Translations under genes and position numbers: made by a program
Notes under the pieces: model-generated
Seen by the model: the letters and a program-made list of their open reading frames with translations, nothing else
The model's database searches: none
What the model was told of the DNA's origin: nothing
Part shown: positions 13,441-30,066 of the stretch, piece after piece
How positions within the stretch are numbered: position 1 is the stretch's first letter
How the letters are laid out: the number at the start of each line of letters is the position of its first letter
From: a virus
Length of the DNA: 48,937 bases
Strand: one strand, 5' to 3'
Virus record (IMG/VR): IMGVR_UViG_3300032092_004479
Span: 1-48,937 of that record

Positions 13441-14159
13441 TATTCGTATCTTTTAAGTATTTTACTAATCAGAGGATTTCTAACAATATCTGAATTGTCA
13501 AATTCAAATACACCAACATCACCCAAATCTTTAAACTTTTCAATCGCATCCCAAAGTCCCGACTGTCTTTTATCTTTGTATCTGTCAGTTTGTTCTAAAT
13601 CCCCCGAGATGAAAAATTTACTATTAAAACCTATTCTTGTCAATAATAACTTCATTTGATTTGGAGTTGAATTTTGTGCTTCCTCAAAAATCAAAATTGA
13701 ATTGTCGATGTTCATCCCTCTCATATAGGCGAGAGCAAATACCTCAATTACATCAATCTGTTTAAGTTTTTCACGAGCCTCTTTACCGATAATCTTATTC
13801 ATCAAATAATAGGATGGAAAAATGTAAGGGTCTAATTTTTCTTCAACATTACCTGGTAGTGAGCCGAGTTTTTCTTCCGCTTCAACTGCCGGTCTAACAA
13901 TGATAATTTTTTCATAAGGAGTTTCAGGGTCAGATAATAAGTCTAACGCTGCTTTCATGGCAATATAACTTTTACCAACCCCCGCCGGACCTGAACATAT
14001 TGTAATTTGATTACCAACTAATAAATCATAATATTTTTTTTGATTCTCAGATAAAAATTTTTCTTTAGATTTCTTTTTTATTATTTCAGTGATTTGGTCT
14101 TTCCTACTCACATTTCTTTTTTGTTCTTCCTGAACTGAAACTGTTTTTTTTCTAGTCAT
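13440..14159 (-). CDS. phoH: PhoH-like ATPase
   Basis: A 239-residue protein with a basic N-terminal extension of about 35 residues followed by a full PhoH-type P-loop domain. Walker A is GPAGVGKS at residues 57-64. IIIVRPAVEAEEKLGSLPG follows as in PhoH proteins. Walker B is ILIFEEAQN at about 154-162, and the sensor region ISGDLEQTD is at 183-191. PhoH is common in T4-like phages and in bacterial phosphate-starvation regulons; it is an ATPase/RNA helicase-like protein with an unclear role in infection. It is the last core gene before the glycan island; a truncated gmd stub lies immediately upstream. Confidence 0.9.
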   Translation of the reverse strand: MTRKKTVSVQEEQKRNVSRKDQITEIIKKKSKEKFLSENQKKYYDLLVGNQITICSGPAGVGKSYIAMKAALDLLSDPETPYEKIIIVRPAVEAEEKLGSLPGNVEEKLDPYIFPSYYLMNKIIGKEAREKLKQIDVIEVFALAYMRGMNIDNSILIFEEAQNSTPNQMKLLLTRIGFNSKFFISGDLEQTDRYKDKRQSGLWDAIEKFKDLGDVGVFEFDNSDIVRNPLISKILKRYE

Positions 14160-14218
14160 AATATTAATTTAGTTATTATTGTTACTAAAATAAAGTAACT
14201 AATAATCAATCATTTCAT

Positions 14219-14290
14219 CTAACATTGATTAAAAGGTATAATCGTGAGACCATCCTGACCGTTTATACCTGTAATTAATGCAACCCCCAT
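14219..14290 (-). pseudogene. gmd: N-terminal stub of GDP-mannose 4,6-dehydratase (gmd)
   Basis: An ATG at 14290, directly after the TAA of the GT17 gene, opens a 23-codon frame starting MGVALITGINGQDG before diverging and stopping at 14219. The VALITGxxGQDG sequence is the NADP-binding start of Gmd; the QDG part separates Gmd from most other SDR enzymes. After QDG the expected SYLAE helix is absent, so the rest of the gene (normally about 350 codons) has been lost. The remaining bases to PhoH (14160-14218) show no gene. The stub marks a deletion or recombination join at the island edge. Confidence 0.62.
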
Positions 14291-15148
14291 TTATTCTTTT
14301 ATAAATTTACTGTACTTATCGATATTATCTAATATGTGCTTTGGGTAGGTGTAATCTATCTCAACTTTGGTTAAATTACCTCTAAAAAATGGGTCTATAT
14401 TGTTCTCCATGTTTTCAGATATTGAAGATAAGACATGGTCATTTGCCATGTCTTTAGCTGAATATGATAACATTTTAGTTTTAACCATTTCCTTACCTCC
14501 CATAAAACTAAAATGCCAACCTCCATTAGGAATTTTAACACTCAATGATTCATCTCCCCTAATTTCATTGAAAGATAAATTTTTTATATTTTTATATTTT
14601 GACATTTTTGTACCGTACCACGTTGATTCTTTAAAAACATTTAAATAGTAAAAATACATCATCTGATTTAATGAATATATATTATTATCTAAATCTAATT
14701 CTTTTAAATTTAATAATATTTCAGGATTAGGAATTTCGTCCGCGTCAGATACTAAAATAATATCATCATCTTCACAATTAATGAGAGGTCTTCTAACACA
14801 CTCTTTTTGAAAAAAATCTCTCCCATAATCATGCTGAGTCCACCTATTAAATCTGTTTGTTTGTGATACAATGTAATCGTTAATTTTATTAAGAGTTTCA
14901 TCTTCACTATAAATTAAATTTACAAAATCACTAGGCGTGTCCGAAACTTTATATAAAATAATTTTATCTAAAAATTTGCCAAATCTTTCTTTGTTCTTAT
15001 CAAAAATAAATTCTTTTTCAATACCAGTATGAGTAACTGATGACTCAACAATTACAAAATAATCAACGTAATCGTATAAAATATTTAACCTTATTTCAAG
15101 TATATCTAATTCATTAAAAAAATTAAAACAATCGTATATTTTTGACAT
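14291..15148 (-). CDS. GT17-like N-acetylglucosaminyltransferase family protein
   Basis: The frame is open to 15283, but the upstream gene ends at 15150, and the ATG at 15148 gives the canonical GT17 start SKIYDCFNFFNELDILEIR. Residues 28-41 (DYFVIVESSVTHTG) and the metal site D135-A-D137-E138 agree with the family. GT17 contains beta-1,4-mannosyl-glycoprotein GlcNAc-transferases in animals and many bacterial and phage relatives of unknown specificity. It is a 285-residue soluble protein. The next gene's ATG stub (gmd) begins right at its stop. Confidence 0.82.
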   Translation of the reverse strand: MSKIYDCFNFFNELDILEIRLNILYDYVDYFVIVESSVTHTGIEKEFIFDKNKERFGKFLDKIILYKVSDTPSDFVNLIYSEDETLNKINDYIVSQTNRFNRWTQHDYGRDFFQKECVRRPLINCEDDDIILVSDADEIPNPEILLNLKELDLDNNIYSLNQMMYFYYLNVFKESTWYGTKMSKYKNIKNLSFNEIRGDESLSVKIPNGGWHFSFMGGKEMVKTKMLSYSAKDMANDHVLSSISENMENNIDPFFRGNLTKVEIDYTYPKHILDNIDKYSKFIKE

Positions 15149-15149
15149 A

Positions 15150-16064
15150 TTAGTACAAATTTTTATTTTTATAATATTCTTTAGCCTCAATTTTACAGGA
15201 TTCATAATCTGATAAATTACCTTCCCTATCAATATAGGTAAAACCTCTAGTATATGATTCTCCCACACACCAATATCCATCACTAATGTTATGTTTAGCC
15301 CAATATTTTGGTGCTAGTATTTTGTTAGCATTAGTATTTAACCAAGCTGCCCACCACCCAAAGGTTGAGTTAGATAAAATAACCCATTTAGATTGGTTAA
15401 CAACATAAAAATCAAATCCTATATCTAAATGGTATGTTGGAATGTCAAATGGCATATATAACTTTGCAAATTCAGGGTCATCAGTTATTATTATAAATTT
15501 CATATTTTGATTAATTGATAACATATGATTTATAGAATCTCTCCAATATTCTTTTCTTAATAAAGTACTATGTATTCCCCTATATTCTCCCCCTCTAAAA
15601 TTTATTACACATAAATTTTCATCTAATGTTATATTAAATTCATTTAATTTATTATTATACTCTAAAGATTTCTCATGTTTAATTTTAAACCATTCAATTA
15701 CTTTATCTCTAATATCAATAAAATAATCTTCACATTGATATATACCACCATGGGCCCCACCGTCCCCAATCAGTCTAGTATTATCAGAAATAGAATAAAT
15801 TCTATTATCTAACATAGTAATATTAATCATTTCACCGTTATGAGGATAATGTATCCATTTCTCATAAAAATTAGTAAATTCACCTTGAACTGGTTTACCA
15901 AAATCAACGTCCATAAAATACATTTGATTCATACCCCCATGATAATCATAAGTAGGGGATGGGTTAATACCCCATTCATACCCAAGTTTTTTTGCAACAG
16001 CTCTACAAACAGAGTATTGCCACATATGGTTACCTAAATTACCTGTTAAATTTGTTGTTATCAT
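15150..16064 (-). CDS. GT11-like (alpha-1,2-fucosyltransferase-type) protein with altered motif I
   Basis: A 304-residue protein with the GT11 layout: TGNLGNHMWQYSVCRAVAKK at the start and SNSTFGWWAAWLN in the C-terminal half. The donor-binding HxRRGD motif appears as N155-F-R157-G-G-E160-Y, so the second arginine and the aspartate are replaced. It may use a different donor than GDP-fucose, or be weak. The neighbour at 24237 keeps the canonical motif. It is 1 base from the GT17 gene and 39 bases from the RmlD-like gene. Confidence 0.72.
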   Translation of the reverse strand: MITTNLTGNLGNHMWQYSVCRAVAKKLGYEWGINPSPTYDYHGGMNQMYFMDVDFGKPVQGEFTNFYEKWIHYPHNGEMINITMLDNRIYSISDNTRLIGDGGAHGGIYQCEDYFIDIRDKVIEWFKIKHEKSLEYNNKLNEFNITLDENLCVINFRGGEYRGIHSTLLRKEYWRDSINHMLSINQNMKFIIITDDPEFAKLYMPFDIPTYHLDIGFDFYVVNQSKWVILSNSTFGWWAAWLNTNANKILAPKYWAKHNISDGYWCVGESYTRGFTYIDREGNLSDYESCKIEAKEYYKNKNLY

Positions 16065-16103
16065 ATTAATTATTTTATAGAATAATTATAAAATTTATTA
16101 AAA

Positions 16104-16904
16104 TTATATCAAGTTAAATTTTTTTAACTCAGTTATTTGACTATGTATACTTTTTTTAATTGGTGATTCGTAAATTGTTGATAAATTTCTAAAACAAATT
16201 TGATTAGTTTCTTTTTTTATAATTGAAATTTTTAATTCATATATTTCATTAATCATACTAATCAACTCAAATTTACTGACAATATCAGGTGAGAATATGT
16301 GTTTAACACCGAGCCAAAAATTATTAGTCGAAATTATTGTATCTATATATTTAGATAACTCAAGACAAGTTAAACCATTCCATAGATGATTTTCATACCC
16401 AAAAATTTCTTTTCCATATTGAGATTTAACCCACTCCACCAATGATTTTTTATTTCTAATTTCTTCACCGATAATAGATGTTCTTATAACAGTTATTAAG
16501 TTATTTTCACCTAAAGATTTACTTTTACCATACTCATCTAAACAATCGTGAGGGTCATTTTCATTATACCCACCTTTTAGTCCATTAAATACGGAATCAG
16601 TCGTAATATGAATTACATTACATTTTATTTTCTGTTTTAATTTTGATAAATAATTTGGAAATAAACTGTTGACAGTTATCATATCAGAAATTTCGTATTC
16701 ACTACGACTTGTAATAACGGATGCATTTATTATTATATCACCCTCAAATATGTTAGATTCAAAAAAATCAAAAATTTCTTTTTTAGACGCTCTTGAGATA
16801 TCAATATTCTTTCTTGTAAATGGTATAATCGTGTATTTTTTTTTTAAAAATTTACATAGATATGTACCTAGCATGCCATTTGACCCAAAAACTATAACCC
16901 TCAT
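16104..16904 (-). CDS. RmlD-like NDP-4-keto-6-deoxysugar reductase (SDR)
   Basis: A 266-residue extended SDR protein. The cofactor site is GSNGMLG (residues 7-13). TTDSVFNG at 101-108 matches the STDYVFDG signature of dTDP-4-dehydrorhamnose reductases. The catalytic Y125-GKS-K129 follows, within DEYGKSKSLGE. RmlD reduces the 4-keto group in the last step of dTDP-rhamnose synthesis; relatives make other 6-deoxysugars. The epimerase RmlC is not in the window, so the product need not be rhamnose. It overlaps the PseB-like gene by 4 bases and is the probable partner reductase of the 4,6-dehydratases here. Confidence 0.75.
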   Translation of the reverse strand: MRVIVFGSNGMLGTYLCKFLKKKYTIIPFTRKNIDISRASKKEIFDFFESNIFEGDIIINASVITSRSEYEISDMITVNSLFPNYLSKLKQKIKCNVIHITTDSVFNGLKGGYNENDPHDCLDEYGKSKSLGENNLITVIRTSIIGEEIRNKKSLVEWVKSQYGKEIFGYENHLWNGLTCLELSKYIDTIISTNNFWLGVKHIFSPDIVSKFELISMINEIYELKISIIKKETNQICFRNLSTIYESPIKKSIHSQITELKKFNLI

Positions 16905-17830
16905 TTAAAAAAATTTTTATTTTTTAAATACTCAAATAATTGTTCTTTGGAAATTAAATTATCTTTAGAAGAATATTCTTTATTATCAAAATTAATGTCG
17001 CTTATAATTTTATTAGGATGAATTAAAAATAAATTGTCATTTTTAATAAATTCGATTCTTTTTGACTCTTCAGTAGACCACATTATTTCATGTATTTTTT
17101 CACCGGTTCTTTCATTTGTTACCCGATATTTTAATCCAAAAGTTTCTTTAAAGATATCAAATAAATCCTTGATTAGAAAAGATTTAGATACCGGAATTAA
17201 ACCACATTTAGAATAATTAACTGATTTAAAAATTAAATCCATTGCATCTTCAATATCTAAAATAAATCTAGTCATTTTTGGGTTAAATAATTCAATTTCT
17301 TTTTTATTATTTATATGATACCAAATTAATGGGATTATCGAACCGGTAGAATTGGTTACATTACCATAAATTGCTGTTGTTAGATTACACTTAGATTCAT
17401 TGACAATAAATGATTCTCCCGCAACATATTTCATTGCACCATATATAGTGGTAGGAGACCTGCTTTTATCTGAAGAAATAAGACAAGATGATTTAAAGTT
17501 ATTAGTTTCAGAGGCTATTCTTGAATTTATTGCACCATCAATTATTATTGATTTAGCCTCTTCAAAATTTTCGGTACAAGCATCTATTTGTTTTAAAGAT
17601 GCCGCAAATATACCTATGGTATGACCAACACTTTTTCTAACTAATAAGTCTCTATTACGTACATCTCCTATAATAAAATTAACTTTTGGGTATTTTTTTT
17701 TCAAAAAATAATGTTTTGATTCATCTCTGGAGTATACCGTAATATCGTTTTCATAATATAATTTATCTATTAAGTTTTTACCTAAAAATCCCGCACCCCC
17801 TGTTATAAATATTCTTTCATTTTTAATCAT
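16901..17830 (-). CDS. PseB/CapD-like UDP-sugar 4,6-dehydratase
   Basis: A 309-residue extended SDR. The cofactor motif is GGAGFLG (11-17). AASLKQIDACTENFEEAK (76-93) and SSDKSRSPTTIYGAMK (119-134) are signatures of the PseB/CapD/FnlA group of UDP-GlcNAc 4,6-dehydratases, where this SDK...Y130-xxx-K134 block is catalytic. A TGEKIHE segment fits the RPGEKLHE motif of the group. The likely product is a UDP-4-keto-6-deoxy-HexNAc. It overlaps the RmlD-like gene by 4 bases, so the two probably work in sequence. The 97-base gap before the methyltransferase gene shows no gene or clear promoter. Confidence 0.78.
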   Translation of the reverse strand: MIKNERIFITGGAGFLGKNLIDKLYYENDITVYSRDESKHYFLKKKYPKVNFIIGDVRNRDLLVRKSVGHTIGIFAASLKQIDACTENFEEAKSIIIDGAINSRIASETNNFKSSCLISSDKSRSPTTIYGAMKYVAGESFIVNESKCNLTTAIYGNVTNSTGSIIPLIWYHINNKKEIELFNPKMTRFILDIEDAMDLIFKSVNYSKCGLIPVSKSFLIKDLFDIFKETFGLKYRVTNERTGEKIHEIMWSTEESKRIEFIKNDNLFLIHPNKIISDINFDNKEYSSKDNLISKEQLFEYLKNKNFFK

Positions 17831-17927
17831 TTATTATATATAGATTAATTATTTTTTTATTTATTTTTTTACAATTGTTACACCAAGATTAATAGGTATT
17901 GTTGAATTTTATATTCAATATTCTTTA

Positions 17928-19181
17928 TCAGATTGAAATAAAATTATTTAATTCTGAATATTCTTTAATGATTTTAAATTCAGGAAATCCAATAATATAT
18001 TTAAAATCATTACCTTCTAATTTTTCAATTATCATTTTACTGAAATTCCATGCAAATATCATAATAAAATCAGGTTTATTATTTAATAAATGCTCCTTAC
18101 TAACTATTGGAATTTGTTTTACGGCAATATGTCGACCACATCTTTCAGGTGATTCATCAACAATAAAATCAATAATATTTGAATCTAAATTGGCCAAATT
18201 ACATAACATATTGGCTCTCCCGCTAGCCCCGTACCCCGCAATTCTATATCCCTTAGATTTTAAATCAATTAAATTATCATAAATCATTTTAATGTGATTT
18301 TTAACGTCCACTCCAAAATTTTTAAAATAACTCAATTCTGTAAGACCATCCTGTTTTTCTAATTCTAATTTTTTGTTAACATGTTTGGGAATTTTAACTA
18401 AATCATTACATATTACTACTCTAATACTCCCACTATGCACAGGAATTTCTTCAAAATCTACAATCGTCATGTTAAATTTATCAAACAAATTCTTTAAAGA
18501 ATTTAAAGAATAATAATAGATGTGTTCATGGTATATATTATCATATTGAAGTTGTTCGATTAAATTTTTAACGTAATGGACTTCAATTACAAAATAACCT
18601 GTTGATTTTAATATTTTATTTACTCCTTTTACGATACTATGAATATCGTCAATATGTGCAAAACAATTATTAGAAATAATTAGGTCAAAACTATTTTTAT
18701 TAAAATATTTTGAGCAATTTTCATCATTAAAATAATCATTAATTACATTACACCCATTTTCTAATGCGATTTTATTTATGTTTACTGCCGGCTCAATACC
18801 TATAGGGTTAAGTCCTAAATATTGTAACGGCTTTAATAAAACACCGTCATTGCTACCTATTTCGAGTATTTTAGAAGATTCAGATAAGTTAAATTTTTTT
18901 TTTAAAAAAGACGCAACATCTGTAAAGTGTTTTGATAAACCTACTGATGACATATATCTATAGTCTTCAAATAGTACTTTTGAATCAATAACACTATCAG
19001 TTTGTAAAAGAGAACATTTTTCGCAAAATTGTAAGTCCATATTATATTTTCTTTCATTTTTAAAATCTTCTTTTAATGGAAAATCACCGGCCAATGGGAC
19101 ATCACCATAATTAATTATGGTTTTTAAATTAACATTATCACAAATTGCGCATTTAGTTCTTTTTTTATATTCATTTTTCAT
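17928..19181 (-). CDS. Sugar C-methyltransferase, TylC3-type
   Basis: A 417-residue, three-part protein. The N-terminal zinc knuckle has C11, C14, C53 and C56. The SAM domain contains ILEIGSNDGVLL (about 105-116) and an HEHIYYYS stretch. The C-terminal domain carries GYGASGRANML. This order matches the NDP-hexose 3-C-methyltransferase group (such as TylC3) that makes branched deoxysugars. The substrate would be an NDP-4-keto-6-deoxysugar, consistent with the dehydratases nearby. It lies 4 bases from the next glycosyltransferase gene, so is probably co-transcribed. Confidence 0.82.
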   Translation of the reverse strand: MKNEYKKRTKCAICDNVNLKTIINYGDVPLAGDFPLKEDFKNERKYNMDLQFCEKCSLLQTDSVIDSKVLFEDYRYMSSVGLSKHFTDVASFLKKKFNLSESSKILEIGSNDGVLLKPLQYLGLNPIGIEPAVNINKIALENGCNVINDYFNDENCSKYFNKNSFDLIISNNCFAHIDDIHSIVKGVNKILKSTGYFVIEVHYVKNLIEQLQYDNIYHEHIYYYSLNSLKNLFDKFNMTIVDFEEIPVHSGSIRVVICNDLVKIPKHVNKKLELEKQDGLTELSYFKNFGVDVKNHIKMIYDNLIDLKSKGYRIAGYGASGRANMLCNLANLDSNIIDFIVDESPERCGRHIAVKQIPIVSKEHLLNNKPDFIMIFAWNFSKMIIEKLEGNDFKYIIGFPEFKIIKEYSELNNFISI

Positions 19182-19185
19182 ATTT

Positions 19186-19968
19186 TTAATTTTTAAAAAA
19201 ATTTAAAGCGTATAAATCTTCTATATCATTAAAATTATGTTCACCGAACCCTGAACTATGATTCCTCATCCAATCACCTTCAGCTCTGGTTTTTAATAGT
19301 TTTAAATTCCACTCAGGTAACGTTTTAGTATAATAATGATTAAGTTGTGCTTTATCAAATGTTACATTCCTAAAGTCAGGTCGACCAATACCAACAGTTC
19401 CATCAACATCAATCCATTCTCCCGGAACAAAATGAATAGAGTGACAGCAAAAATTTTCATGTAATTTACATATTGGTAAAAATTGATAATAAGAGCTAGT
19501 GTACGCCTGTCCCCATCTTTTAGTGAATCTTTCTAAAACACTTGTATAATTTTCATCAAAAGTTGTATGTCCATTATCACCAAAAAACGCAAAGTTTATT
19601 ACAACTTGTTGTTGAGGAGTGTTGTCAAAATTGGAGATAAATTCTTTAACATTTTTTGATTGTTTTAAAACTAAAAAGCAATCAACGTCAAAAAAAGCCG
19701 CCCATTCGTAATTTTTATAATGTTCTTTACCAAAATTACTATAACATTTCGAATGACGGTTCCAGTCCCAAACTTCTCCAGAAGGAGGGTCTGATTCAAC
19801 ATCCCATTCCATAAAATGAACCCGACTATCAGGTTTTTGATTCTTAAATCTCCAATTATTTTGAAAAATAAATATATCATCAAAACCTATCTTTAGATGG
19901 TAATCAATCCATTCTTGTAAATAGAAATCTTCATCTTTTGCCATGGTAACCAAAGCTATCTTTTTCAT
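19186..19968 (-). CDS. GT92-like glycosyltransferase
   Basis: A 260-residue soluble protein. The start IALVTMAKDEDFYLQEWIDYH matches the GT92/GT2_4-type opening (KNExxxLxEWxxYH). The metal site is D94-V-D96 in AFFDVDCFLVL. LNHYYTK near residue 218 is the typical C-terminal acceptor-side motif. Members attach galactose or other sugars; the specificity here is unknown. It lies 1 base from the DUF3431-like gene, in a run of four adjacent glycosyltransferase-like genes (19186-22011). Confidence 0.78.
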   Translation of the reverse strand: MKKIALVTMAKDEDFYLQEWIDYHLKIGFDDIFIFQNNWRFKNQKPDSRVHFMEWDVESDPPSGEVWDWNRHSKCYSNFGKEHYKNYEWAAFFDVDCFLVLKQSKNVKEFISNFDNTPQQQVVINFAFFGDNGHTTFDENYTSVLERFTKRWGQAYTSSYYQFLPICKLHENFCCHSIHFVPGEWIDVDGTVGIGRPDFRNVTFDKAQLNHYYTKTLPEWNLKLLKTRAEGDWMRNHSSGFGEHNFNDIEDLYALNFFKN

Positions 19969-19969
19969 A

Positions 19970-20641
19970 TCACAATATTGTTTTAAATTTATCGTTAAAA
20001 ATATAACACTCTAATCTTTCAATCATCCACGGAGCGTTTACATCATCCTCTAATAATTCCACAATTTTTTTGTAAAATTGCCTACTTCTTAATTTTATTT
20101 GTTCTTTTGTTATGACAAAATGACCTCCTGGCATAAATTCATAAGTTTGAGGAATGTTATTATCTTCTAAAAATAAAATATTCCAATATTTATCAACATC
20201 TATATTTGGATTTAAATCTTGTGGGTGGCCATTAGATTGACAAGATATAATTCCACCAACACCTACCTGTGATGATTTGTCTAAATACCAAGAAGTACCA
20301 AAATTATTATTATGGTAACCATAATATCCTCCTATAGTTAATGATGCGTTTTTTGGTATTTCTTCCTCACTTGAATTTATTATATCAATAACATTACCCC
20401 AGTGGTCAAACGGAAAATCCTGCACAAAAAATGTATAATCCGATAAATTATCATAATTCAAGTAGATGTGATTAAAAAATGTATGGACACATCTTCCTTT
20501 ATTTATGGATATTTTTATTTCATTTTCTTTTAATGGTATTATGTCTCCTTTTCTATAGATTGTTACTTTAACATCACTATTTAAACGACTTACCCAATCA
20601 AGTTCTTTTTCATATGCCGCAATTACAATTTCTTTAGTCAT
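19970..20641 (-). CDS. DUF3431-like putative glycosyltransferase
   Basis: A 223-residue protein opening IVIAAYEKELDWVSRL, followed by FFVQDFPFDHWG (71-82) and a late PGGHFVITKEQI. That arrangement is typical of the DUF3431 family, which accompanies bacterial and fungal glycan clusters and is considered GT-like. No DxD is certain; QDFPFD may supply it. It lies 1 base from the GT92-like gene and 3 bases from the DUF5672-like gene. Confidence 0.7.
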   Translation of the reverse strand: MTKEIVIAAYEKELDWVSRLNSDVKVTIYRKGDIIPLKENEIKISINKGRCVHTFFNHIYLNYDNLSDYTFFVQDFPFDHWGNVIDIINSSEEEIPKNASLTIGGYYGYHNNNFGTSWYLDKSSQVGVGGIISCQSNGHPQDLNPNIDVDKYWNILFLEDNNIPQTYEFMPGGHFVITKEQIKLRSRQFYKKIVELLEDDVNAPWMIERLECYIFNDKFKTIL

Positions 20642-20644
20642 ATT

Positions 20645-21304
20645 TTAAAATTTAGGGTAATTTATATTATTATAAATATAGTTGTGAAATGCAAAGGGAG
20701 TAATTCCCTCTATTTCAGGTATCCAAGTCTCATGAGAAAAATACTTGGCAATCTCCAAGTCGGCAAATTTACACCCATCCTCAATGTATTTATGACGATA
20801 ATTTACACAAATAAAACCGTCCTCATTAGTGAAACCATGAAAAGGTTTCCATTCTAAATTATACTTTATTGGAACGTCTAATAATTTTTTACTTCTTATA
20901 GAGACACTATTCCCAACTCTAACTAAGTTATTGTCAATATCTCTGTATGAAAAATTATCTTTTGGTAACGGCCAAGGTGCTCCTATATAATCATAATTTA
21001 AAAATTCATCTTTCCATGATTCCGGATTTACAACAAAACCATTGTCGTGTATTAATAATGCAAACTCCGTATCTACATGTTTAGGTAAATTATAAATTAT
21101 ATTATAATTCCATTCATCGATATTTCCACTTTTTGGTGTAAATTCATGTTGTATAAAACTTGGTAAATCATCAGGAATAATATCTGACGCCAGTTTAACC
21201 TTACCGAATTTTATACCTCTACAACTATATTCTAAAGCTTTAATTGTCTGTGGTATTCTAACACTTGTTAATGCGATTAATGTAACGTTGGGTAAATCAA
21301 TCAT
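20645..21304 (-). CDS. DUF5672-like putative glycosyltransferase
   Basis: A 219-residue protein with IHDNGFVV near residue 85, YIGAPWPLP at 106-114, VGNSVSIRSKKLL at 130-142 and NEDGFIC at 160-166. These are the hallmarks of the DUF5672 family, found in bacterial and phage surface-glycan clusters and probably of GT-A fold. The donor is unknown. It sits 8 bases from the GT2 gene. Confidence 0.72.
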   Translation of the reverse strand: MIDLPNVTLIALTSVRIPQTIKALEYSCRGIKFGKVKLASDIIPDDLPSFIQHEFTPKSGNIDEWNYNIIYNLPKHVDTEFALLIHDNGFVVNPESWKDEFLNYDYIGAPWPLPKDNFSYRDIDNNLVRVGNSVSIRSKKLLDVPIKYNLEWKPFHGFTNEDGFICVNYRHKYIEDGCKFADLEIAKYFSHETWIPEIEGITPFAFHNYIYNNINYPKF

Positions 21305-21312
21305 ATTTTTTC

Positions 21313-22011
21313 TTATGCAAATTTACTAATCACCATTAAATATTCTCTATCTTTAACTTCTTGAGTTACAGTATCACATAACCTAGCTCCCCATGTTCTG
21401 TTAACCACGGTTATTTCATTAAGAATTTTGGGCTCCCCATGTTTTAAAAACATTCTTTGATAATAATCACAATCCATATACCAATTCATTTCTTCATCAA
21501 AAAATATTAAATCCTCATTTTTAATAGTTATGCCACTCGGGCAACCCATAGTGTTGTTACCGGTATAAATATGAGGGTGAAAAAATGGATGGTAAAGTCT
21601 ATAAAAATTAATTCCATCATTACTATGATAAAACATAGTAACAAACCAAACTAAATTTTCAGTATTATTAATAAAATCAAATTGTTTTTGAAGAGAATTT
21701 TCATCATATAAAAAATCATCCTGAAAAAGTATCTTAATCCATTTTCCCGAACATTTTTTCATAGCTTCGTTTATATTTGGAGATATAACTCCTCTTCCTC
21801 TATCATTAAATGAGTGTTTTATGGTAAGTCTATCTTTCCATTGGTCACATAAATCTTTTATTGTGTTATCAGTACTGTGGTCAGATATGACAATCTCAAA
21901 ATCCTTAAAAGTTTGAGAGAATAATTTTTCAAAACTAAAATTTAAAAATTCAGACCCTTTACCATTATATCCATATGTTGGAATTGCAATCGAAAAAAAG
22001 ACTTGTTCCAT
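21313..22011 (-). CDS. GT2 glycosyltransferase
   Basis: A 232-residue GT-A protein: FSIAIPTYG (6-14), VISDHSTDNT (41-50) and the metal site FQDDF (96-100), followed by a late WGAR. This is the classic GT2 pattern. It has no membrane segment, unlike many polysaccharide synthases. The start is 1 base after the stop of the RmlB-like gene. The acceptor is unknown; it probably adds the sugar made by the neighbouring dehydratase genes. Confidence 0.82.
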   Translation of the reverse strand: MEQVFFSIAIPTYGYNGKGSEFLNFSFEKLFSQTFKDFEIVISDHSTDNTIKDLCDQWKDRLTIKHSFNDRGRGVISPNINEAMKKCSGKWIKILFQDDFLYDENSLQKQFDFINNTENLVWFVTMFYHSNDGINFYRLYHPFFHPHIYTGNNTMGCPSGITIKNEDLIFFDEEMNWYMDCDYYQRMFLKHGEPKILNEITVVNRTWGARLCDTVTQEVKDREYLMVISKFA

Positions 22012-22012
22012 A

Positions 22013-22921
22013 TTAATTTAAAATTCTAATCATCCAATCTTTTAATTTTATTTTTTGTATTTCACCAAATTCCGATATAAATTTATTAGAATTTAGAGAA
22101 TATCTTCTATCATGACCTAATCGGTCATCGACATACTTAAAATTTATTTTTTTACCCAGAATTTCACCAACCATATTAATCAAGTCGTTATTAGTGTAAA
22201 TTTCGTTAGTACCAATATTAAAAATATGATTTATTTTTTCTGAAAATAAAATTTTTATGATTGATTCCGCGTTATCATCAGCATGTATCCATTCTCTTAT
22301 TTGATTCCCATCTCCATAAACAGGTATATCTTTACCTTCTTTTATGGAATTAATAATAGTAGGTATAAATTTTTCTTTATGTTGATTTTCACCGTAGTTA
22401 TTACAAGTTCTTGTTATTATATAAGGTAACCCATAAGTTCTATTTGCGGAAATTATTAGCAAATCTGAAGAAGTTTTTGTTGCGGAATAATAAGAGCTTG
22501 GGTTTAAATTAAAAGATTCATCCGAGGTAGTATTACTTGAATATTCATCTAAATCACCATATACCTCATCAGTTGAGATTTGTACGAATTTTATGAGATT
22601 TTTATTTTTTCTTGCAATTTCAATAAGGTTGTAAGTACCCTCGACATTTGTTCTTACAAATGGTAATCCATTCTTTATTGAATTATCCACATGTGATTCG
22701 GCTGCAAAATTAATGAGATATTCAAATTGACCTAAATCACCTTCAGTTAACTCACAAATATCTTTTTTTATAAGAACATGAGGTACTTTTACATTGTTAA
22801 TATTTGACGCATACGTCATTTTATCGACAATAACAATTTCACTTTTAGTTTTTGTATAAAGTAAATTCACAAAGTGAGAACCTATAAATCCTAAACCTCC
22901 GGTTACTATTATTCTACCCAT
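22013..22921 (-). CDS. rmlB: RmlB-like dTDP-glucose 4,6-dehydratase
   Basis: A 302-residue extended SDR with all RmlB marks: TGGLGFIGSHF (7-17), FAAESHVDNSI (72-82), the catalytic T117-D118-E119 in QISTDEVYGDL, Y145-xxx-K149 in SYYSATK, and VYGDGNQIREWIHADD. The reaction is dTDP-glucose to dTDP-4-keto-6-deoxyglucose. It overlaps the E1-type dehydratase by 13 bases, strong evidence that the two act in the same pathway. RmlA and RmlC are not in the window; the glucose-1-phosphate thymidylyltransferase step could come from the host. Confidence 0.85.
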   Translation of the reverse strand: MGRIIVTGGLGFIGSHFVNLLYTKTKSEIVIVDKMTYASNINNVKVPHVLIKKDICELTEGDLGQFEYLINFAAESHVDNSIKNGLPFVRTNVEGTYNLIEIARKNKNLIKFVQISTDEVYGDLDEYSSNTTSDESFNLNPSSYYSATKTSSDLLIISANRTYGLPYIITRTCNNYGENQHKEKFIPTIINSIKEGKDIPVYGDGNQIREWIHADDNAESIIKILFSEKINHIFNIGTNEIYTNNDLINMVGEILGKKINFKYVDDRLGHDRRYSLNSNKFISEFGEIQKIKLKDWMIRILN

Positions 22922-24213
22922 TTTTCTTTAAAAATATTTTCTATGTATTCAAAAACAGATTCATCATAATGAGGTGCTGCCCCTAAAAAGAAAACTTTAT
23001 CCAAAACTTTATTAGAATTTGGGTATTTTTCTAAATTATCTAAATGAGAGTACCCAGGGTGAAACAAAATGTTACCGGCAAAATAGTTTCTGGTTTGTAT
23101 TTTATTTTCCTCTAAAAAAGAAACTAATTTATCTTTTAATTTTTTGTCTTCACAAATGAATGGAGTACCAAACCAACAAGTGTCAGATTTTTCTAAAGAA
23201 CTAACACCTCTCAACCCATTTACGTATTTTAATAAAATAGATTCAATTTTTGATTTTGAATTTTTTCTGTTTGTGTCAATTTCACCAAATTTTGCCAATT
23301 GTTCTAATCCTATAGAACCTTGTAAATCCATTGGTTTAAGATTGTATCCCATATTAGTAAAAACATATTTATGGTCAATTATTCCATCATATGATTTTAA
23401 CCATTTACCAAATCTAAGTTGACAAGTGCCACAAGATAAAAGATTTGCAGAACCAACACAATAACAGTCTCTACCCCACCAAGAAATACTTACAAAAAGT
23501 TTTTTCAAATCCTCAATGTTTGTACATATCATACCCCCTTCACCTGTTGATATGTGGTGAGCAGGATAGAAAGAACATGACCATGCAACGTAGTAATCAC
23601 TAATAGGTTTGCCATCCCATTTAGTACCCAAAGTATCACAGCTATCTCCGATTAATTGTAAATTATGTTTTTCACATAAATTTTTTAAAAAATCCATATC
23701 AGGTGGATTACCTAATACAGGAGATACAAAAATCGCTTTAGTTTTTTCTGTAATTTTTTCTTCTATTTTAGTAACATCAAAATTTAAAGTTTCCCATTCT
23801 ATATCAATAAAAACAGGTGTTAAATTGTTTTGGACTAATGGTGCGATTGTGGTTGGAAACCCTACTGGAGAAACAATAATTTCATCCCCATCTTCCCACC
23901 CAAAAAATTTCTTTAATGCCGTTATCAAAACTAAATTGGCCGAACTACCGGAGTTAACCATATGAGAAAATTTAACTCCAAACATCTTGGAAAATTTATT
24001 CTCAAATTTAAAAACATTTTCTCCTGTAACTAACCATTTACCGGATATCAGAGTTTTAATTGCTGATATAACTTCTTTTTCATCCCAATAGGGTCCTGAG
24101 TAAAGTACTTGACTTTTACCTGGCTCAAAATTTTTATTGTATAGATATTTTGGTGTATTACTCTTTAAGTAATCGCTTATTTCACCTAATAGTGTTTCTA
24201 AGTTTTTTTCCAT
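22909..24213 (-). CDS. E1/RfbH-type NDP-4-keto-6-deoxyhexose 3-dehydratase ([2Fe-2S], PMP)
   Basis: A 434-residue member of the DegT/DnrJ/EryC1/StrS fold. The PLP lysine is replaced by His: SFYPAHHISTGEGG has H219-H220, as in E1 (CDP-4-keto-6-deoxyglucose 3-dehydratase), which removes the 3-OH with PMP and an iron-sulfur cluster. Cysteines C192, C250, C252 and C261 give C-x57-C-x1-C-x8-C, close to the E1 motif C-x57-C-x1-C-x7-C. It should make a 3,6-dideoxysugar precursor, but the reductase E3 is absent from the window. Its end overlaps RmlB by 13 bases, suggesting a dTDP-linked substrate as in SpnQ-type enzymes. Confidence 0.85.
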   Translation of the reverse strand: MEKNLETLLGEISDYLKSNTPKYLYNKNFEPGKSQVLYSGPYWDEKEVISAIKTLISGKWLVTGENVFKFENKFSKMFGVKFSHMVNSGSSANLVLITALKKFFGWEDGDEIIVSPVGFPTTIAPLVQNNLTPVFIDIEWETLNFDVTKIEEKITEKTKAIFVSPVLGNPPDMDFLKNLCEKHNLQLIGDSCDTLGTKWDGKPISDYYVAWSCSFYPAHHISTGEGGMICTNIEDLKKLFVSISWWGRDCYCVGSANLLSCGTCQLRFGKWLKSYDGIIDHKYVFTNMGYNLKPMDLQGSIGLEQLAKFGEIDTNRKNSKSKIESILLKYVNGLRGVSSLEKSDTCWFGTPFICEDKKLKDKLVSFLEENKIQTRNYFAGNILFHPGYSHLDNLEKYPNSNKVLDKVFFLGAAPHYDESVFEYIENIFKEKWVE

Positions 24214-24236
24214 ACTGAATAATAGAATATTATTTT

Positions 24237-25010
24237 TTAATTATCAATAGTAATCCATTCTGAAGGTACCACATCTTGATAATCTTGAGGTCCTGTAAAA
24301 TTAAACCATCGTTTAGGTGCGATTACTTTTTTATTCACATTAGAATTAAGATATGCTCCCCACCACCCAAAAGTACTATTAGAGATAATATTATTATGAC
24401 AATTGGACATTACGGACATTTCTTTGACATCGTCATTAATGTTTGGGTATATAAAATTGTCACCATTAAAATTATCTTTAGCCCATTCTAAATCATCTGA
24501 AAAAATTATAAATTTAGTGTCTTCTAATAAGGAGATTGCATTTTTAAAATAATCAATATCACAAGTAAAATGAAAATTGTAATTACCGTGAACATAATCT
24601 CCTCTACGAATGTGTATTGACGTATATGTACTATCTTTAGGTAAGGAGTTAAAAAAAATTTTAGAATATTCTTCGTCTAAAACAAATAAATTTTTAACCT
24701 CATCTTTATAATTAATAAAATATTTTTCACTTTGGAAATATCCGTCTAAATATAAATTTTCACTGTGCGGTATTTTTTTAAATGAGAATCCGGGTTCTCT
24801 GTAAAAGTTGTTAAAATTGTAATTTGTAAATGTTGGTATTTTTTTAAAAATAGTATTTTTATAGAAATTAGAAGGTTTACCTTGATTCGGGGTATTACAA
24901 GTATCAAAGTTAAATCCAAATTCATCGTTATTTTCTTTAGCCAATGAATAGGCGGAGGCGATTTGAAACATTTGATTACCTAAACCACCCTGTAATCCTG
25001 TTGAAATCAT
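24237..25010 (-). CDS. GT11 alpha-1,2-fucosyltransferase-type enzyme
   Basis: A 257-residue protein with canonical GT11 motifs: GGLGNQMFQ (8-16), HIRRGDY (133-139) for GDP-sugar binding, FSDDLEWAK, and SNSTFGWWGAYLN in the C-terminal part. Known members add L-fucose (or related GDP-sugars) in alpha-1,2 linkage. GDP-fucose needs Gmd and a Fcl-type reductase; only a gmd stub is visible (14219-14290), so the donor may come from the host or be different. It overlaps the next GT2 gene by 4 bases. Confidence 0.88.
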   Translation of the reverse strand: MISTGLQGGLGNQMFQIASAYSLAKENNDEFGFNFDTCNTPNQGKPSNFYKNTIFKKIPTFTNYNFNNFYREPGFSFKKIPHSENLYLDGYFQSEKYFINYKDEVKNLFVLDEEYSKIFFNSLPKDSTYTSIHIRRGDYVHGNYNFHFTCDIDYFKNAISLLEDTKFIIFSDDLEWAKDNFNGDNFIYPNINDDVKEMSVMSNCHNNIISNSTFGWWGAYLNSNVNKKVIAPKRWFNFTGPQDYQDVVPSEWITIDN

Positions 25011-25729
25011 CTTAATAATCTACTATATGGTTTTTTATTTCTAATTTTAATAGCGTGGTCGTTGACCATTCTCATATCAATCTTATGTTCGTTTATCGGA
25101 TTATCACCATTGTAAACATAGTTAATTTCATCCATGAATTTATAATGCTCAGGACCTGACATTTCTAGCATTGGATACATAAAACATAAATCCCCGCTCC
25201 ATTGCCAATAATTCCCATTCTCATCTCTCAAATCTTCTTCCTTAATATTTCTCCAAAGGAAGGCCCTCCAAGTTCTTATATGAGATGCGGTAAATCTAGA
25301 ACCCCTTAAATTTTCAAAATTTGTTTGAGGACTTGAGAATCCTGGATGTCCGTTTGAATATTTAAAACTACCGTTAGCGACCCATACGTCAGGATTTTTA
25401 TAAACCTCATTAATCCTTTCAAATACCTTTGAGTCAGGTAACCAATCATCTCCATCAACTTCGATAAGTAATTCATCATCTTCTATTTCAGAATTAAATC
25501 TTATTGTTCTATCAAAATTACCGGCTTGGTATAGTTTTTTTTCGTAATCATTAACTAAAATAAATCTTTCATCATTTTTAATTAAATCACTAACAATCTG
25601 TACAGAATTATCTGTTGACATATCATGAGTGATATAACATTTAAAATCACTATGAGTTTGACCCATCATGGATAAAATACTTCTCTCAACGTATTTTTCG
25701 GCATTATAAAAACCTGTTAATATGACCAT
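25007..25729 (-). CDS. GT2 glycosyltransferase
   Basis: A 240-residue GT-A protein: VILTGFYNAEKYVERSILS at the start, ITHDMSTDNS (33-42) and the metal site EVDGDDWLP with D92, D94 and D95. Typical GT2 core with a cytoplasmic, soluble profile. It overlaps the epimerase-like gene by 13 bases and the GT11 gene by 4. The acceptor is unknown. Confidence 0.83.
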   Translation of the reverse strand: MVILTGFYNAEKYVERSILSMMGQTHSDFKCYITHDMSTDNSVQIVSDLIKNDERFILVNDYEKKLYQAGNFDRTIRFNSEIEDDELLIEVDGDDWLPDSKVFERINEVYKNPDVWVANGSFKYSNGHPGFSSPQTNFENLRGSRFTASHIRTWRAFLWRNIKEEDLRDENGNYWQWSGDLCFMYPMLEMSGPEHYKFMDEINYVYNGDNPINEHKIDMRMVNDHAIKIRNKKPYSRLLR

Positions 25730-26406
25730 TTTTTTAAATATTTTGTTAAAATTTTATCAGTATAATTTTTAGAAGTAACGTTTAAATTTTTTATAATATC
25801 GACAACTTCTTTACTGTTATTAATGTTCGGAATATTTTCCGTAAAATCAATTAATTCAAAATTTTCTTTTTTATTTATTATCTTAGAAATTTTTTTATAA
25901 AGCTCAATTACTTTTACTGTTTCTATGTTTGAAAATTTTATGATTTTATTTTCACAATTAAAGATTAATTCTTTGGATATATTAAAAACATCGTTAACAT
26001 CAATTATCGCTCTCCAGCTATCAGAAAAAATAATTGTTTTTTCTCCCTCGATTAAACTTTTGGTAAAGAAATTTACAATATTTTTTTGATTACCTTTTTC
26101 TCCAACAACTTGGGGTAAACGAATTATTAGAAAATTTTTGCAAGTATTAGAAATTAAATCCTCCATTTCTAATTTATGGGTATAATACTTGGTTTCTTTA
26201 AACCCAACAAAAATACTACTGAAATAAACAATTTTTTTTTCACCATTATTTTCTATTGTCTCACGTAGAAGTTTTTTTTCTCTATTAAAATTTTCTTCTT
26301 TATCCTCTGTTGAGTTGGAGACACCCGACGCAAAAATTACCACTTCATCATTATTGTGAAATTCTTCAAAAAAAATACTACCTAAAGAACCTTTACCTAC
26401 AACCAT
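25717..26406 (-). CDS. Short SDR / NDP-sugar epimerase-like protein
   Basis: A 229-residue Rossmann protein starting MVVGKGSLGS (glycine motif 4-9), with IVYFSSIFVG and a Y-THK-type pair (YYTHKLEMEDLI) as the catalytic Tyr/Lys. It is shorter than full NDP-sugar epimerases (about 300 residues), mainly in the C-terminal substrate domain. It may act on a 4-keto intermediate or bind without catalysis. It is followed within 13 bases (overlap) by a GT2 gene. No upstream in-frame start was found before a stop. Confidence 0.68.
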   Translation of the reverse strand: MVVGKGSLGSIFFEEFHNNDEVVIFASGVSNSTEDKEENFNREKKLLRETIENNGEKKIVYFSSIFVGFKETKYYTHKLEMEDLISNTCKNFLIIRLPQVVGEKGNQKNIVNFFTKSLIEGEKTIIFSDSWRAIIDVNDVFNISKELIFNCENKIIKFSNIETVKVIELYKKISKIINKKENFELIDFTENIPNINNSKEVVDIIKNLNVTSKNYTDKILTKYLKKWSY

Positions 26407-26430
26407 TATAAAATAATAAGATTACCGTAA

Positions 26431-27183
26431 TTATTTTAGTATTTGTTTTCTATTCTTTAGGTAGTTACCCAAATAATCATTGGTACATTCTTCTTCAGTA
26501 AACAAATAGTATGTGCCAAAACCGTATTTTTTATTAAAATCGCTTAATCTCTCACCTCGGATTTTATTTTTATACAAATAATCTTTTAACCCCATGAATT
26601 TAAAATGTAACATCTTTAAAGAATTATCTGTAGATAATTTTACTTCCCCAAAAGGGTTGGCGTTATGACAACCAAAATTGTAGTTAATTTCTTTTATTTT
26701 ATTACAATTAAACATCATCATTTTATCTAAAACTTCTGTTCTAACACCGTATTTAACTTTTTCTAATATATTATCATCAGGTAATAAATTCAAATTTTCA
26801 TCACCAACCATATGGTGTCCCTCAGGTTTAAAAATTGTAATACCATTATTAAACGATGTTATTAAAAAATCTATCATATTTTCATGGTATAAAAATTCGT
26901 CAGTATCCCCAAGTATAACATAATCGGCAACACCAATACTTGATTTCCAAACATTATTTTTCACATCAATATGGACTCCATCATGAAATGAATTATTTGA
27001 TTCAAAAGTTAAAACTTCAGTGTTAGGAAAAGATTTTACAATTTCTACACTATTATCTGTAGATTTGTTATCTATGATTGTGATTTTTTCACAGAAATTG
27101 GAGTAGTGCTTTATTAGGTGAGGTAAAATATTTTCCTCGTTATAGCACAAAAAATATGCGTGTACCACTGGTTTTTTACTCAT
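26431..27183 (-). CDS. GT2-like glycosyltransferase (Glyco_tranf_2_4 type)
   Basis: A 250-residue protein: VVHAYFLCYNEENILPHLIKHY, then IIDNKSTDNSVEI (36-48) and the metal site GDTDEFL (92-98). This is the Glyco_tranf_2_4 pattern, close to the GT92-like gene at 19186. It overlaps the next gene by 1 base. The specificity is unknown. Confidence 0.8.
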   Translation of the reverse strand: MSKKPVVHAYFLCYNEENILPHLIKHYSNFCEKITIIDNKSTDNSVEIVKSFPNTEVLTFESNNSFHDGVHIDVKNNVWKSSIGVADYVILGDTDEFLYHENMIDFLITSFNNGITIFKPEGHHMVGDENLNLLPDDNILEKVKYGVRTEVLDKMMMFNCNKIKEINYNFGCHNANPFGEVKLSTDNSLKMLHFKFMGLKDYLYKNKIRGERLSDFNKKYGFGTYYLFTEEECTNDYLGNYLKNRKQILK

Positions 27184-27968
27184 TAGTTTAAAATTTCAAT
27201 CCATTTATTTATAATTTCCTCGTTAGTTAACATAACGGGAGGGTTGTTTGTTGCAAAATTACCATTGAAAATGGTGCCCGTTGTTTCGCATTCATCCTTA
27301 ACTAATGTAGCCACCTCACTTTTTGATGAATGATATACACACCCAATCATATCATACATTTCTTGTTTGTTTTCAAAAAAACCTTTAACGATGACTTGCT
27401 CACTTAATAGCGGTTTTACATAATGTTCAAAATAAGGACCTGATGGTTCTCCAAAAATATAAACTTTCTCGCATCCATCATTAAGTGCTCTCTGAATAGA
27501 GATGTGGACTTGTTTATTATCATCCATAGAACCAATAATTCCTGCAATTTTTTCTAAACCTGTCTTATCTTTTTTTAGTAGCTCTTCTTTTAAATTTGGA
27601 ATGATTGTATAAGGACCATTATACTCGTTATGATATTCTCTGTGACCTTCATTTAAAAAAACAACTTCATCCCAAAATTGTTTTATTTTACCAACCTCAA
27701 ATAAATTCTTTTCATGACAAGAAAGAATTACCTTATTTGCAGGAGGTCTTGATTCTAACGCTAAAAAATGAGTGATTAAAGTATCATTTTTTTCTATTTG
27801 TAAATTTTGTATTTTATCTGAATTACACTTATCTAAATGCCATTCATGTGGCCCATAAAATGTTGCATCGTATCCGGCTTGGTTTAAAAAATTGGTTAAT
27901 CTAATAAATGCGACAGTTGAGCCCCCTCTATTTGACCACCCACTAACTATTTTTATTTTTTTACTCAT
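27183..27968 (-). CDS. GT-B-like glycosyltransferase (family 4-like)
   Basis: A 261-residue protein that starts VSGWSNRGGSTVAFIRLTNFLNQ, the glycine-rich acceptor-side loop of GT4 enzymes, followed by alternating beta/alpha segments (VILSCHEKN, IAGIIGSMDDNK, YIFGEPSG). The donor-side E-x7-E motif is weak (KSEVATLVKDE). It is shorter than typical GT4 (about 350). Some residues are missing, so activity is less certain than fold. Confidence 0.65.
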   Translation of the reverse strand: MSKKIKIVSGWSNRGGSTVAFIRLTNFLNQAGYDATFYGPHEWHLDKCNSDKIQNLQIEKNDTLITHFLALESRPPANKVILSCHEKNLFEVGKIKQFWDEVVFLNEGHREYHNEYNGPYTIIPNLKEELLKKDKTGLEKIAGIIGSMDDNKQVHISIQRALNDGCEKVYIFGEPSGPYFEHYVKPLLSEQVIVKGFFENKQEMYDMIGCVYHSSKSEVATLVKDECETTGTIFNGNFATNNPPVMLTNEEIINKWIEILN

Positions 27969-29476
27969 TTTAAAATATAAATTTCATTTAATAATTTATC
28001 AAAATTCCTTTTGAGAAAAGGAAGAAATAATTTGTTATAATCCTCAGTCATTTCTATTTCTCCTTTTTTTATTTCTCGTGTTGCGGATTCTAAATGGTGT
28101 GCAACACAATTAGAATTTGTTAGATTTTTAAAGCCGCCAATCTTTATTTTTAAATTAAGCTCAACATCTTCAAAACAATGTCGGTAACTCTCATTAAACA
28201 TACCGTATTTAACAAAAACTTTTTTATAAATCATCATTAAAGCCGCGGTATTACCAATTACAGAATTTATTCCTAATGAAAAATTATAATAATTATTTTT
28301 GTTTTTATGAGTTGTTAAAATATCTTTCTGATTTTGATTGACAATTACAATCATACCATCATGTTGTACAATATTATCTTCATATAATAATCTGGCTCCT
28401 ACAGTACCGCAAGAAGGGTTAGTTTTAAAAGTACGTAACATCTCAAAAATAACATTATTTAATATGAAAACATCATTACTACAAAATAATAAAAATTCAT
28501 ATTCGTCTCCCACATAATTCTTTACTACATCATTATTTATTTTGGCAAAATTATAGTAATCATACTCAATTAATTTAATATTTCCAAAAGTCAAAATGTT
28601 TTCTTTTATGAATTTTTTTTCATCATCAGTAGACCCCGTATCGGCAATAAAAATATCAAACAAAGAAGAATTACAATATTGGTAAAACGAGCTGATACAT
28701 TTTTGTAACATTTCTACTTTACCTTTAGTTGGTATAACTATTGCAACCTTACCGTTAAGTTTAATTGGTTTTTCTTTTATTTCGGGTATGTATGGTTTTT
28801 CAGGCTTCAAATCTAAAGGTAAGTTGGCTCCAAATTTTTCTAAAAATTTAATTTTACTCTCAAAAAATTCTTCGTTTGGTTGACCAACAGATTGATGTGT
28901 TATTTCAAATGAGGATGTGACCCCAAGTTTAACTCCATCCAAATAATTACTTAGACAAAATGGATGGTCATAAAAGTGAAACTTACCAATAGTTTCGTCA
29001 AATTTATGTTTTATTTTAGTTTTATCTAAAGATATAAATAATCCATCAACTGTTACAACAGGTATTAGAAACGGTAATTTTGGGCTGTAGGTATTCAACC
29101 ATTTTTTTTGACCATCGGGGTGGTGATATACTTGACCAACCATAGTTTGAAGCATTCTTTCCCAATATATTCCTGATTCTGGAAAATAACAAGACCCGGC
29201 TTTTCCAATTATACCAAACTCCGGATTATTAGAAAAATCTTCGAGTAGTTTTTTACCCCAACCTGTTTCTAATTTAATATCATTATGACAACAAACTATA
29301 ATATCATAAACCGATTCAGTTATTCCGCTATTATAAACTTGAGGTAAAGAATATTGATTGTTATTCTGATATTCTAAAATCTGAACATTTTTTAATCCAA
29401 CACTATGTAACAAATGTTGTTTAAATTTATTATTGTAATCAGAATCTTTATGGGTTGAATATATAATTGTAATCAT
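27965..29476 (-). CDS. Two-domain glycosyltransferase (two GT2-like units)
   Basis: A 503-residue fusion. Residues 1-230 form a GT-A-like domain (ITIIYSTHKDSDY start, VCCHNDIKLETGW). Residues from about 244 form a canonical GT2 domain: VAIVIPTKGKVEMLQKC, IADTGSTDDEK, then FCSNDVF as the metal site, and HCFEDVELNLKIK in the acceptor region. Such bifunctional enzymes often add alternating residues of a repeat unit. The stop overlaps the next gene by 4 bases, and the start overlaps dUTPase by 4. Confidence 0.78.
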   Translation of the reverse strand: MITIIYSTHKDSDYNNKFKQHLLHSVGLKNVQILEYQNNNQYSLPQVYNSGITESVYDIIVCCHNDIKLETGWGKKLLEDFSNNPEFGIIGKAGSCYFPESGIYWERMLQTMVGQVYHHPDGQKKWLNTYSPKLPFLIPVVTVDGLFISLDKTKIKHKFDETIGKFHFYDHPFCLSNYLDGVKLGVTSSFEITHQSVGQPNEEFFESKIKFLEKFGANLPLDLKPEKPYIPEIKEKPIKLNGKVAIVIPTKGKVEMLQKCISSFYQYCNSSLFDIFIADTGSTDDEKKFIKENILTFGNIKLIEYDYYNFAKINNDVVKNYVGDEYEFLLFCSNDVFILNNVIFEMLRTFKTNPSCGTVGARLLYEDNIVQHDGMIVIVNQNQKDILTTHKNKNNYYNFSLGINSVIGNTAALMMIYKKVFVKYGMFNESYRHCFEDVELNLKIKIGGFKNLTNSNCVAHHLESATREIKKGEIEMTEDYNKLFLPFLKRNFDKLLNEIYILK

Positions 29477-30066
29477 ATTCCAGTCGAACCAAAACCGTTC
29501 TCGTTTCTATCTTTGTTTATTTCTTCTGTTGTTTCTTTTAAATCAACCCACTTTCCATTTACCACAGGACATAAAACCGCTTGAGCAATTTTAGTGCCCT
29601 TTTCTATGGTGTAAGCAAAATCATTAGTGTTAAATATGATTACTTGGACTTCTCCCGTGTAACCATTGTCAACAGTTCCTGGTGAATTTAAAACCATAAG
29701 TCCTTGATTAATTGCAAGACCACTTTTTGACCTTACTTGAATTTCATATCCATCTTTAATATCAAACGATAATCCTGTTGGGACTAACGCTCTTCCGAAT
29801 TTTGTAATATAAACCGTTTGTGTTGCATATAAATCAAATCCAGAATCCGATGGATAATTGTAGAATGGGTCTTTCGCCTCAGGACGTAGTTTTTTGTATT
29901 TTAATTCCATCTTTGGAGAATACGATAACATCTCGTTTTCAAGTTTATTAATATCCAAACCAGTCTCATCTAAAATCATTTTAAATGTATCATCGTCGAA
30001 ATTTTCGTCTAGATATTTGTTGAGCATTTCTGCTTGTTCTTTTAAAGAATTTAAGTCGGTATTCAT
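29473..30066 (-). CDS. dut: dUTPase (dUTP diphosphatase) with N-terminal extension
   Basis: A 197-residue trimeric-type dUTPase with all five motifs: DSGFDLYA (74-81), RSKSGLA (112-118), GTVDNGYTGEV (130-140, D133), GTKIAQAVLCPV (157-168) and RNENGFGSTG (187-196). It converts dUTP to dUMP, limiting uracil in phage DNA. Residues 1-55 form an extra acidic helical region not needed for the fold. It lies at the right edge of the glycan island and overlaps the exonuclease gene by 4 bases. Confidence 0.93.
   Translation of the reverse strand: MNTDLNSLKEQAEMLNKYLDENFDDDTFKMILDETGLDINKLENEMLSYSPKMELKYKKLRPEAKDPFYNYPSDSGFDLYATQTVYITKFGRALVPTGLSFDIKDGYEIQVRSKSGLAINQGLMVLNSPGTVDNGYTGEVQVIIFNTNDFAYTIEKGTKIAQAVLCPVVNGKWVDLKETTEEINKDRNENGFGSTGI

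Follow-up and report, generated by a model that had tools for sequence, protein, structure and literature searches.

What does a large aquatic phage make with a nucleotide-sugar 4,6-dehydratase gene that is overlapped by a gene for a sugar 3-dehydratase of the E1 type? The stretch analyzed here as a whole, termed the window, is a viral record of 48.9 kb from such a phage and likely a fragment of its genome. On its minus strand lie an RmlB-family dTDP-glucose 4,6-dehydratase gene (22013-22921, 302 residues) and, overlapping it by 13 bases, the gene of a predicted E1-type [2Fe-2S] NDP-4-keto-6-deoxyhexose 3-dehydratase of a long-loop subfamily (22909-24213, 434 residues). As tips of O-antigens, 3,6-dideoxyhexoses are known to be strongly antigenic. 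Should phages themselves encode the deoxygenation step, with hundreds of viral copies, rare sugars could be written onto virions or host surfaces, with effects on receptor choice and superinfection.

The best solved-structure match of the 434-residue protein was the Yersinia E1 enzyme (3bcx, E=1.3e-79, residues 12-430), with ColD next. The NCBIfam RfbH equivalog model (NF011936) gave 361 bits, which is below its cut-off of 423. An AlphaFold2 model of the protein had a mean pLDDT of 83.8, and a Foldseek search of this model against the PDB returned E1 structures (3bcx/3bb8) as the top three matches with TMq values of 0.82-0.83. The structure prediction proposed in a preliminary description of the sequence thus recovered the E1 fold, while the cluster loop was poorly resolved, with pLDDT below 50 at residues 246-251. 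Purifying selection on the gene is strong, with dN/dS of ~0.06-0.2 by Nei-Gojobori counts, an approximate range as dS is near saturation. By homology, the open reading frame 22909-24213 is an E1-type [2Fe-2S] 3-dehydratase. The RmlB-family protein scored 304 bits against TIGR01181 (cut-off 365) in comparison to 45 bits for CDP-glucose dehydratase, matched PDB entry 6bi4 with E=8.5e-68 and contains the motifs STDEVYG and YSATK. All ten of its best PDB matches were dTDP/TDP-glucose dehydratases, and its cyanophage and Bacteriovoracaceae relatives exceed the TIGR01181 cut-off. The identification of the pair and its overlap, first made in the preliminary description, is therefore borne out by the coordinates and by both sets of matches, whose scores far exceed chance.

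For E1 (3bcx) we take the cluster ligands to be C193, C251, C253 and C261. In an alignment of 75 distinct viral rows, the first three correspond to C192 (codon 23638-23640, minus strand, as for all codons here), C250 and C252 (codons of C250-Y251-C252, 23458-23466), each of which is conserved in 75/75 rows and was already named as a cluster cysteine in the preliminary description. The fourth ligand had been placed at C261 (codon 23431-23433), giving a spacing of C-x57-C-x1-C-x8-C. C261 is indeed present, but E1 C261 aligns with C264 of the window enzyme (codon 23422-23424), which is a cysteine in every row, so that the predicted spacing is corrected to C-x57-C-x1-C-x11-C. C261 was rejected as a ligand. 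Beyond the main phage clade it varies, being Asn in three cyanophage or marine-virus rows of the viral alignment and Asn, Lys, Glu, Arg or another residue in many bacterial members. His219-His220 stands where aminotransferases carry lysine, as had been stated; H219 (codon 23557-23559) aligns to E1 H220 in all 75 rows. With C264 in place of C261, the four cysteines and the histidine all fall on the E1 cofactor sites, and neither do they vary in a 37-row alignment extended to canonical enzymes. Since ~15% of the columns in that alignment are invariant, the chance of all five named columns being so is ~8e-5, a rough value as columns are not independent.

The window enzyme thus resembles E1/RfbH (AscC, DdhC; CDP-4-keto-6-deoxyglucose 3-dehydratase) in fold, in the histidine replacing lysine, in the four cluster cysteines and in its full-length alignment, whereas it differs in its ~34% identity, in the x11 rather than x7 loop before the fourth cysteine, in belonging to a separate clade and in having no CDP-glucose genes nearby. 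Sequence scans matched at least 597 viral stretches and 374 cellular ones. Nearly all canonical enzymes have the x7 loop, the x11 loop being a feature of the phage proteins and of a group of proteins from aquatic bacteria; a maximum-likelihood tree splits the two groups with 99% SH-aLRT support. Thirty of the 32 phage rows, sampled by similarity to the window enzyme, form one clade (97%) beside three cyanobacterial proteins and one encoded in an actinobacterial bin, and two marine phages fall with Prochlorococcus and other bacterial sequences. Some of the "bacterial" long-loop contigs could be phage DNA in bins. As far as sequence comparison tells, there is a long-loop clade common to phages and aquatic bacteria and distinct from canonical E1/RfbH.

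The phage-borne gene is therefore widespread rather than rare, and isolated cyanophages have annotated copies: that of Synechococcus phage S-H68 is already labeled CDP-4-dehydro-6-deoxy-D-glucose 3-dehydratase. The earlier remark that no well-studied phage was known to use such sugars holds for function, and we found no functional study of any phage 3-dehydratase in the open-access literature; as to the gene, with its at least 597 viral matches, it was overstated. Cyanophage sugar and LPS genes are well described (PMC9602691), and in a study of huge phages the five largest were predicted to infect Bacteroidetes (PMC7162821). Cyanophages S-H68, S-B05 and RN05-S carry the same long-loop enzyme at 54% identity, with Asn at the position of C261. 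The S-H68 and RN05-S genes are each part of a glycosylation island that also contains RmlB, RmlC and a short-chain dehydrogenase/reductase (SDR; SDR4 in one of them), and both phages carry a Fer2 ferredoxin as well. The uncultured huge phage LR756502.1 (642 kb) encodes a 79% identical enzyme that is followed by a fused SDR (474-residue frame), where the window instead has RmlB. A "Salmonella phage" match (H8) was excluded, being a 2.6 kb fragment and probably bacterial.

A [2Fe-2S] enzyme of this type needs electrons. A cysteine-motif search gave no E3 candidates, even beside canonical E1 genes, which is why PF00970 was used instead. With positive controls, PF00970 matched no E3-type reductase in any of 25 phage records, among them LR756502.1 over its full 642 kb; the window itself is only a fragment. 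Flavodoxin (PF00258) was absent from 24 records, a Fer2 ferredoxin matched only in the S-H68 and RN05-S records, and the window fragment holds no known electron donor. Among 30 bacterial genomes that carry E1-type genes, 13 likewise lack PF00970 proteins, so the absence of E3 is not special to phages. SpnQ, the dTDP-4-keto-2,6-dideoxyglucose 3-dehydratase, likened to the window enzyme by its published description, is the precedent for use of a general reductase. Its substrate needs prior 2-deoxygenation, and for a forosamine-type route a 2,3-dehydratase would be required; NDP-hexose 2,3-dehydratase (PF03559) had no match in 26 records, nor in the control genomes. SpnQ is a [2Fe-2S] enzyme reported to be driven by general ferredoxin or flavodoxin systems, and it transaminates if the reductase is lacking, whereas E1 and ColD did not under those conditions (PMC8987622).

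The SpnQ result also bears on a different reading, in which the enzyme, lacking a reductase, would behave in vivo chiefly as a sugar aminotransferase, or as a ColD-like dehydratase that recycles PMP with glutamate. The missing E3 in the phage records would fit, as would related phages in which a lysine-type aminotransferase gene occupies the position of E1 ahead of the same SDR. We nevertheless hold it to be quite improbable: the four cluster cysteines, dispensable in ColD, are strictly kept, E1 and ColD stayed free of transamination in the SpnQ study, and the bacterial genomes without PF00970 show the same gap. With no E3 encoded while the cluster cysteines are strictly kept, the simplest reading, by analogy to SpnQ, is that electrons presumably come from a host donor.

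The nucleotide carried by the substrate was approached through gene context, taken up to 10 kb on each side of E1 in 85 phage and 30 bacterial long-loop loci and in 48 canonical loci, with counts inflated by closely related contigs. A CDP-glucose dehydratase was near E1 in 0/115 long-loop loci versus 28/48 canonical ones (Fisher p=7e-19), and glucose-1-phosphate cytidylyltransferase in 1/115 (none of the 85 phage loci) versus 28/48; no cytidylyltransferase scored above cut-off in 26 records. The comparison with ascarylose, which is CDP-linked and E3-dependent, is consequently a misfit, as neither CDP-glucose genes nor an E3 occur in the context. The closest characterized relative is nonetheless the CDP enzyme E1, and the phage protein might act on CDP-4-keto-6-deoxyglucose of the host as E1/RfbH do, leaving RmlB to serve another sugar. 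Given the missing CDP genes, the separate clade and the longer cluster loop, there is little to recommend this canonical route, and we rate its probability as low. The nucleotide argument draws its strength from the missing CDP genes, with dTDP the likeliest replacement.

RmlB is not the standard neighbor of the E1 family, a notion ruled out by its presence in just 4/85 phage loci; compared with canonical loci it is not significantly enriched (p=0.5). It lies within three genes of E1 in six bacterial loci, and in marine virus L004 RmlB, SDR4 and E1 follow in series with overlaps. RmlA was confirmed by sequence in one phage relative (G004), and a second RmlA-like gene was also found. Based on the RmlB partner, L004, the cyanophage island, the six bacterial loci, the RmlA-bearing relatives and a TylC3-type methyltransferase in the window (see below), the substrate nucleotide is probably dTDP.

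GMD and Fcl were present in 23/85 and 18/85 phage loci, and since they lie near about a quarter of the phage E1 genes a GDP substrate is possible. The same 3-dehydratase chemistry on GDP-4-keto-6-deoxymannose would then yield a colitose-like GDP sugar for GT11 enzymes, whose genes adjoin E1, and separate ColD-type phage genes do adjoin GMD and Fcl, as in S-CAM7. ColD itself, the GDP-4-keto-6-deoxymannose 3-dehydratase, shares the fold and the active-site histidine with the window enzyme. However, ColD-type enzymes, the S-CAM7 protein included, lack the [2Fe-2S] cysteines, GMD occurs in 0/30 bacterial long-loop loci, and GMD and Fcl already supply GDP-fucose for GT11, which makes the GDP route unlikely. 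The window enzyme has the cysteines and an RmlB neighbor, and thus fits neither of the features that mark ColD, absence of cluster cysteines and a GDP-mannose context; GMD had no match among the window open reading frames scanned.

The S-CAM7 and ACG-2014f matches were rejected as the same enzyme, being only 28% identical, and belong to a separate group of cyanophage proteins with greater similarity to ColD; the S-CAM7 protein keeps the histidine and is without the cysteines. A second, ColD-like type of phage 3-dehydratase, with the histidine kept and no cluster cysteines, is seen at 9980-11113 of the S-CAM7 locus (L005), directly after GMD and GDP-fucose synthase, and in L204 from position 1152.

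A 3-deoxygenated 4-ketosugar would still call for a 4-ketoreductase. A translationally coupled SDR was found within two genes of E1 in 95/115 long-loop loci, and among directly adjacent E1/SDR pairs the frames overlap in 80/88. SDR1, which is RmlD-like, occurred in 50/85 phage loci, and SDR4 in 26/85 phage and 19/30 bacterial ones; in 12 loci SDR1 bears an additional C-terminal region, which is a GT2 in the one representative scanned. In a search seeded with SDR1, E1 was directly upstream in 11/26 loci, and seven of the 26 had a DegT aminotransferase of the lysine type upstream or nearby; several of the remaining loci are from genomes with E1 elsewhere. SDR1 hence follows DegT-family sugar enzymes generally, which weakens the idea that it is a dedicated dideoxysugar reductase. 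The loci in which SDR1 comes after lysine-type DegT aminotransferases, with E1 replaced (L194, L195, L196, L205, L210, L211 and L213), are read by us as an alternative, aminosugar version of the module.

Neither SDR1 nor SDR4 is encoded in the 48.9 kb window fragment. The two phages most closely related to the window, G001 (165 kb) and G002 (322 kb), each have E1, SDR1 and an RmlB homologue far apart in one genome, so the genome of the window may likewise keep SDR1 elsewhere. A local alternative is the candidate RmlD-like 4-ketoreductase gene at 16104-16904 (minus strand; TIGR01214, 64 bits, below the cut-off of 224). It is paired, through a 4-base overlap, with a gene for a PseB/FnlA-like relative of UDP-GlcNAc 4,6-dehydratase (16901-17830, minus strand; TIGR03589, 155 bits, below the cut-off of 408) that has close homologues in five other phage loci. 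A short SDR that is weakly RmlD-like (25717-26406, minus strand; Pfam RmlD E=8e-4, below cut-off) has homologues in 11 related phage loci.

The E1/RmlB pair is surrounded by GT1, GT2, GT11, GT17, DUF3431 and DUF5672 genes identified by profile matches, which form a glycosylation island of ~19 kb (10633-29476, minus strand). A GT11-family glycosyltransferase gene adjoins E1 (24237-25010, minus strand; Pfam GT11 E=2.5e-35), and a GT2 gene lies directly downstream of RmlB (21313-22011, minus strand; Pfam GT2 E=2.4e-13). Tail-fibre-like genes are located at 39079-40596 and 44859-48080. The island also encodes a putative sugar 3-C-methyltransferase of the TylC3/TcaB9 type (17928-19181, minus strand), which matches PDB entries 4rv9 (E=3.5e-63) and 3ndi (E=3e-46) as well as Pfam Methyltransf_13/23/14 and contains a YHEH motif. 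Enzymes of this family act on 4-keto deoxysugars and are known from dTDP sugars. The methyltransferase suggests a branched deoxysugar product from the same island.

From gene identity, residue conservation, context and selection we infer a reaction, a nucleotide, an electron donor, a final sugar and a target as follows. With reasonable though limited confidence, we propose that the phage carries a 3,6-dideoxyhexose pathway, most likely dTDP-linked, whose opening two reactions are catalyzed by the products of the pair, with electrons supplied by the host and with the island glycosyltransferases serving the pathway. dTDP-glucose would come from the host, or from RmlA in some relatives, and RmlB would convert it to dTDP-4-keto-6-deoxyglucose. 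In the second step, the C3 hydroxyl would be stripped and the intermediate reduced by the E1-type enzyme, which would have PMP at H219 and ligate a [2Fe-2S] cluster through C192/C250/C252/C264; the electrons would come from a ferredoxin- or flavodoxin-type donor of the host. A short-chain reductase would then reduce the 4-ketone; in relatives this may be the SDR coupled with the E1 gene, and in the phage of the window the role would fall to the RmlD-like gene at 16104 or to one beyond the window. Finally, the island glycosyltransferases would attach the sugar to a glycan of the virion or of the host surface.

More tentatively, the long-loop clade as a whole might be a dTDP-specific, E3-independent 3-deoxygenase leading to dTDP-3,6-dideoxyhexoses, although we would not yet bet on it. 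It would then be part of a module common among large aquatic phages, with completion and transfer of the sugar left to a coupled or fused SDR-glycosyltransferase. To our knowledge, such a route is not known from characterized systems. Through the clade, nucleotide choice and cluster-loop architecture can be compared among natural enzymes for this kind of deoxygenation.

A few further features were recorded. In one phage sugar cluster (L224, 1357-2453), apparent split halves of a transketolase lie beside an RmlB-family gene. In the window, positions 29473-30066 look like a dUTPase by their sequence motifs. The GT17 frame at 14291-15283 and the GT11 frame at 15150-16064 have a listed overlap of 134 bases, and the GTG start of the GT17 frame has probably been set too far upstream.
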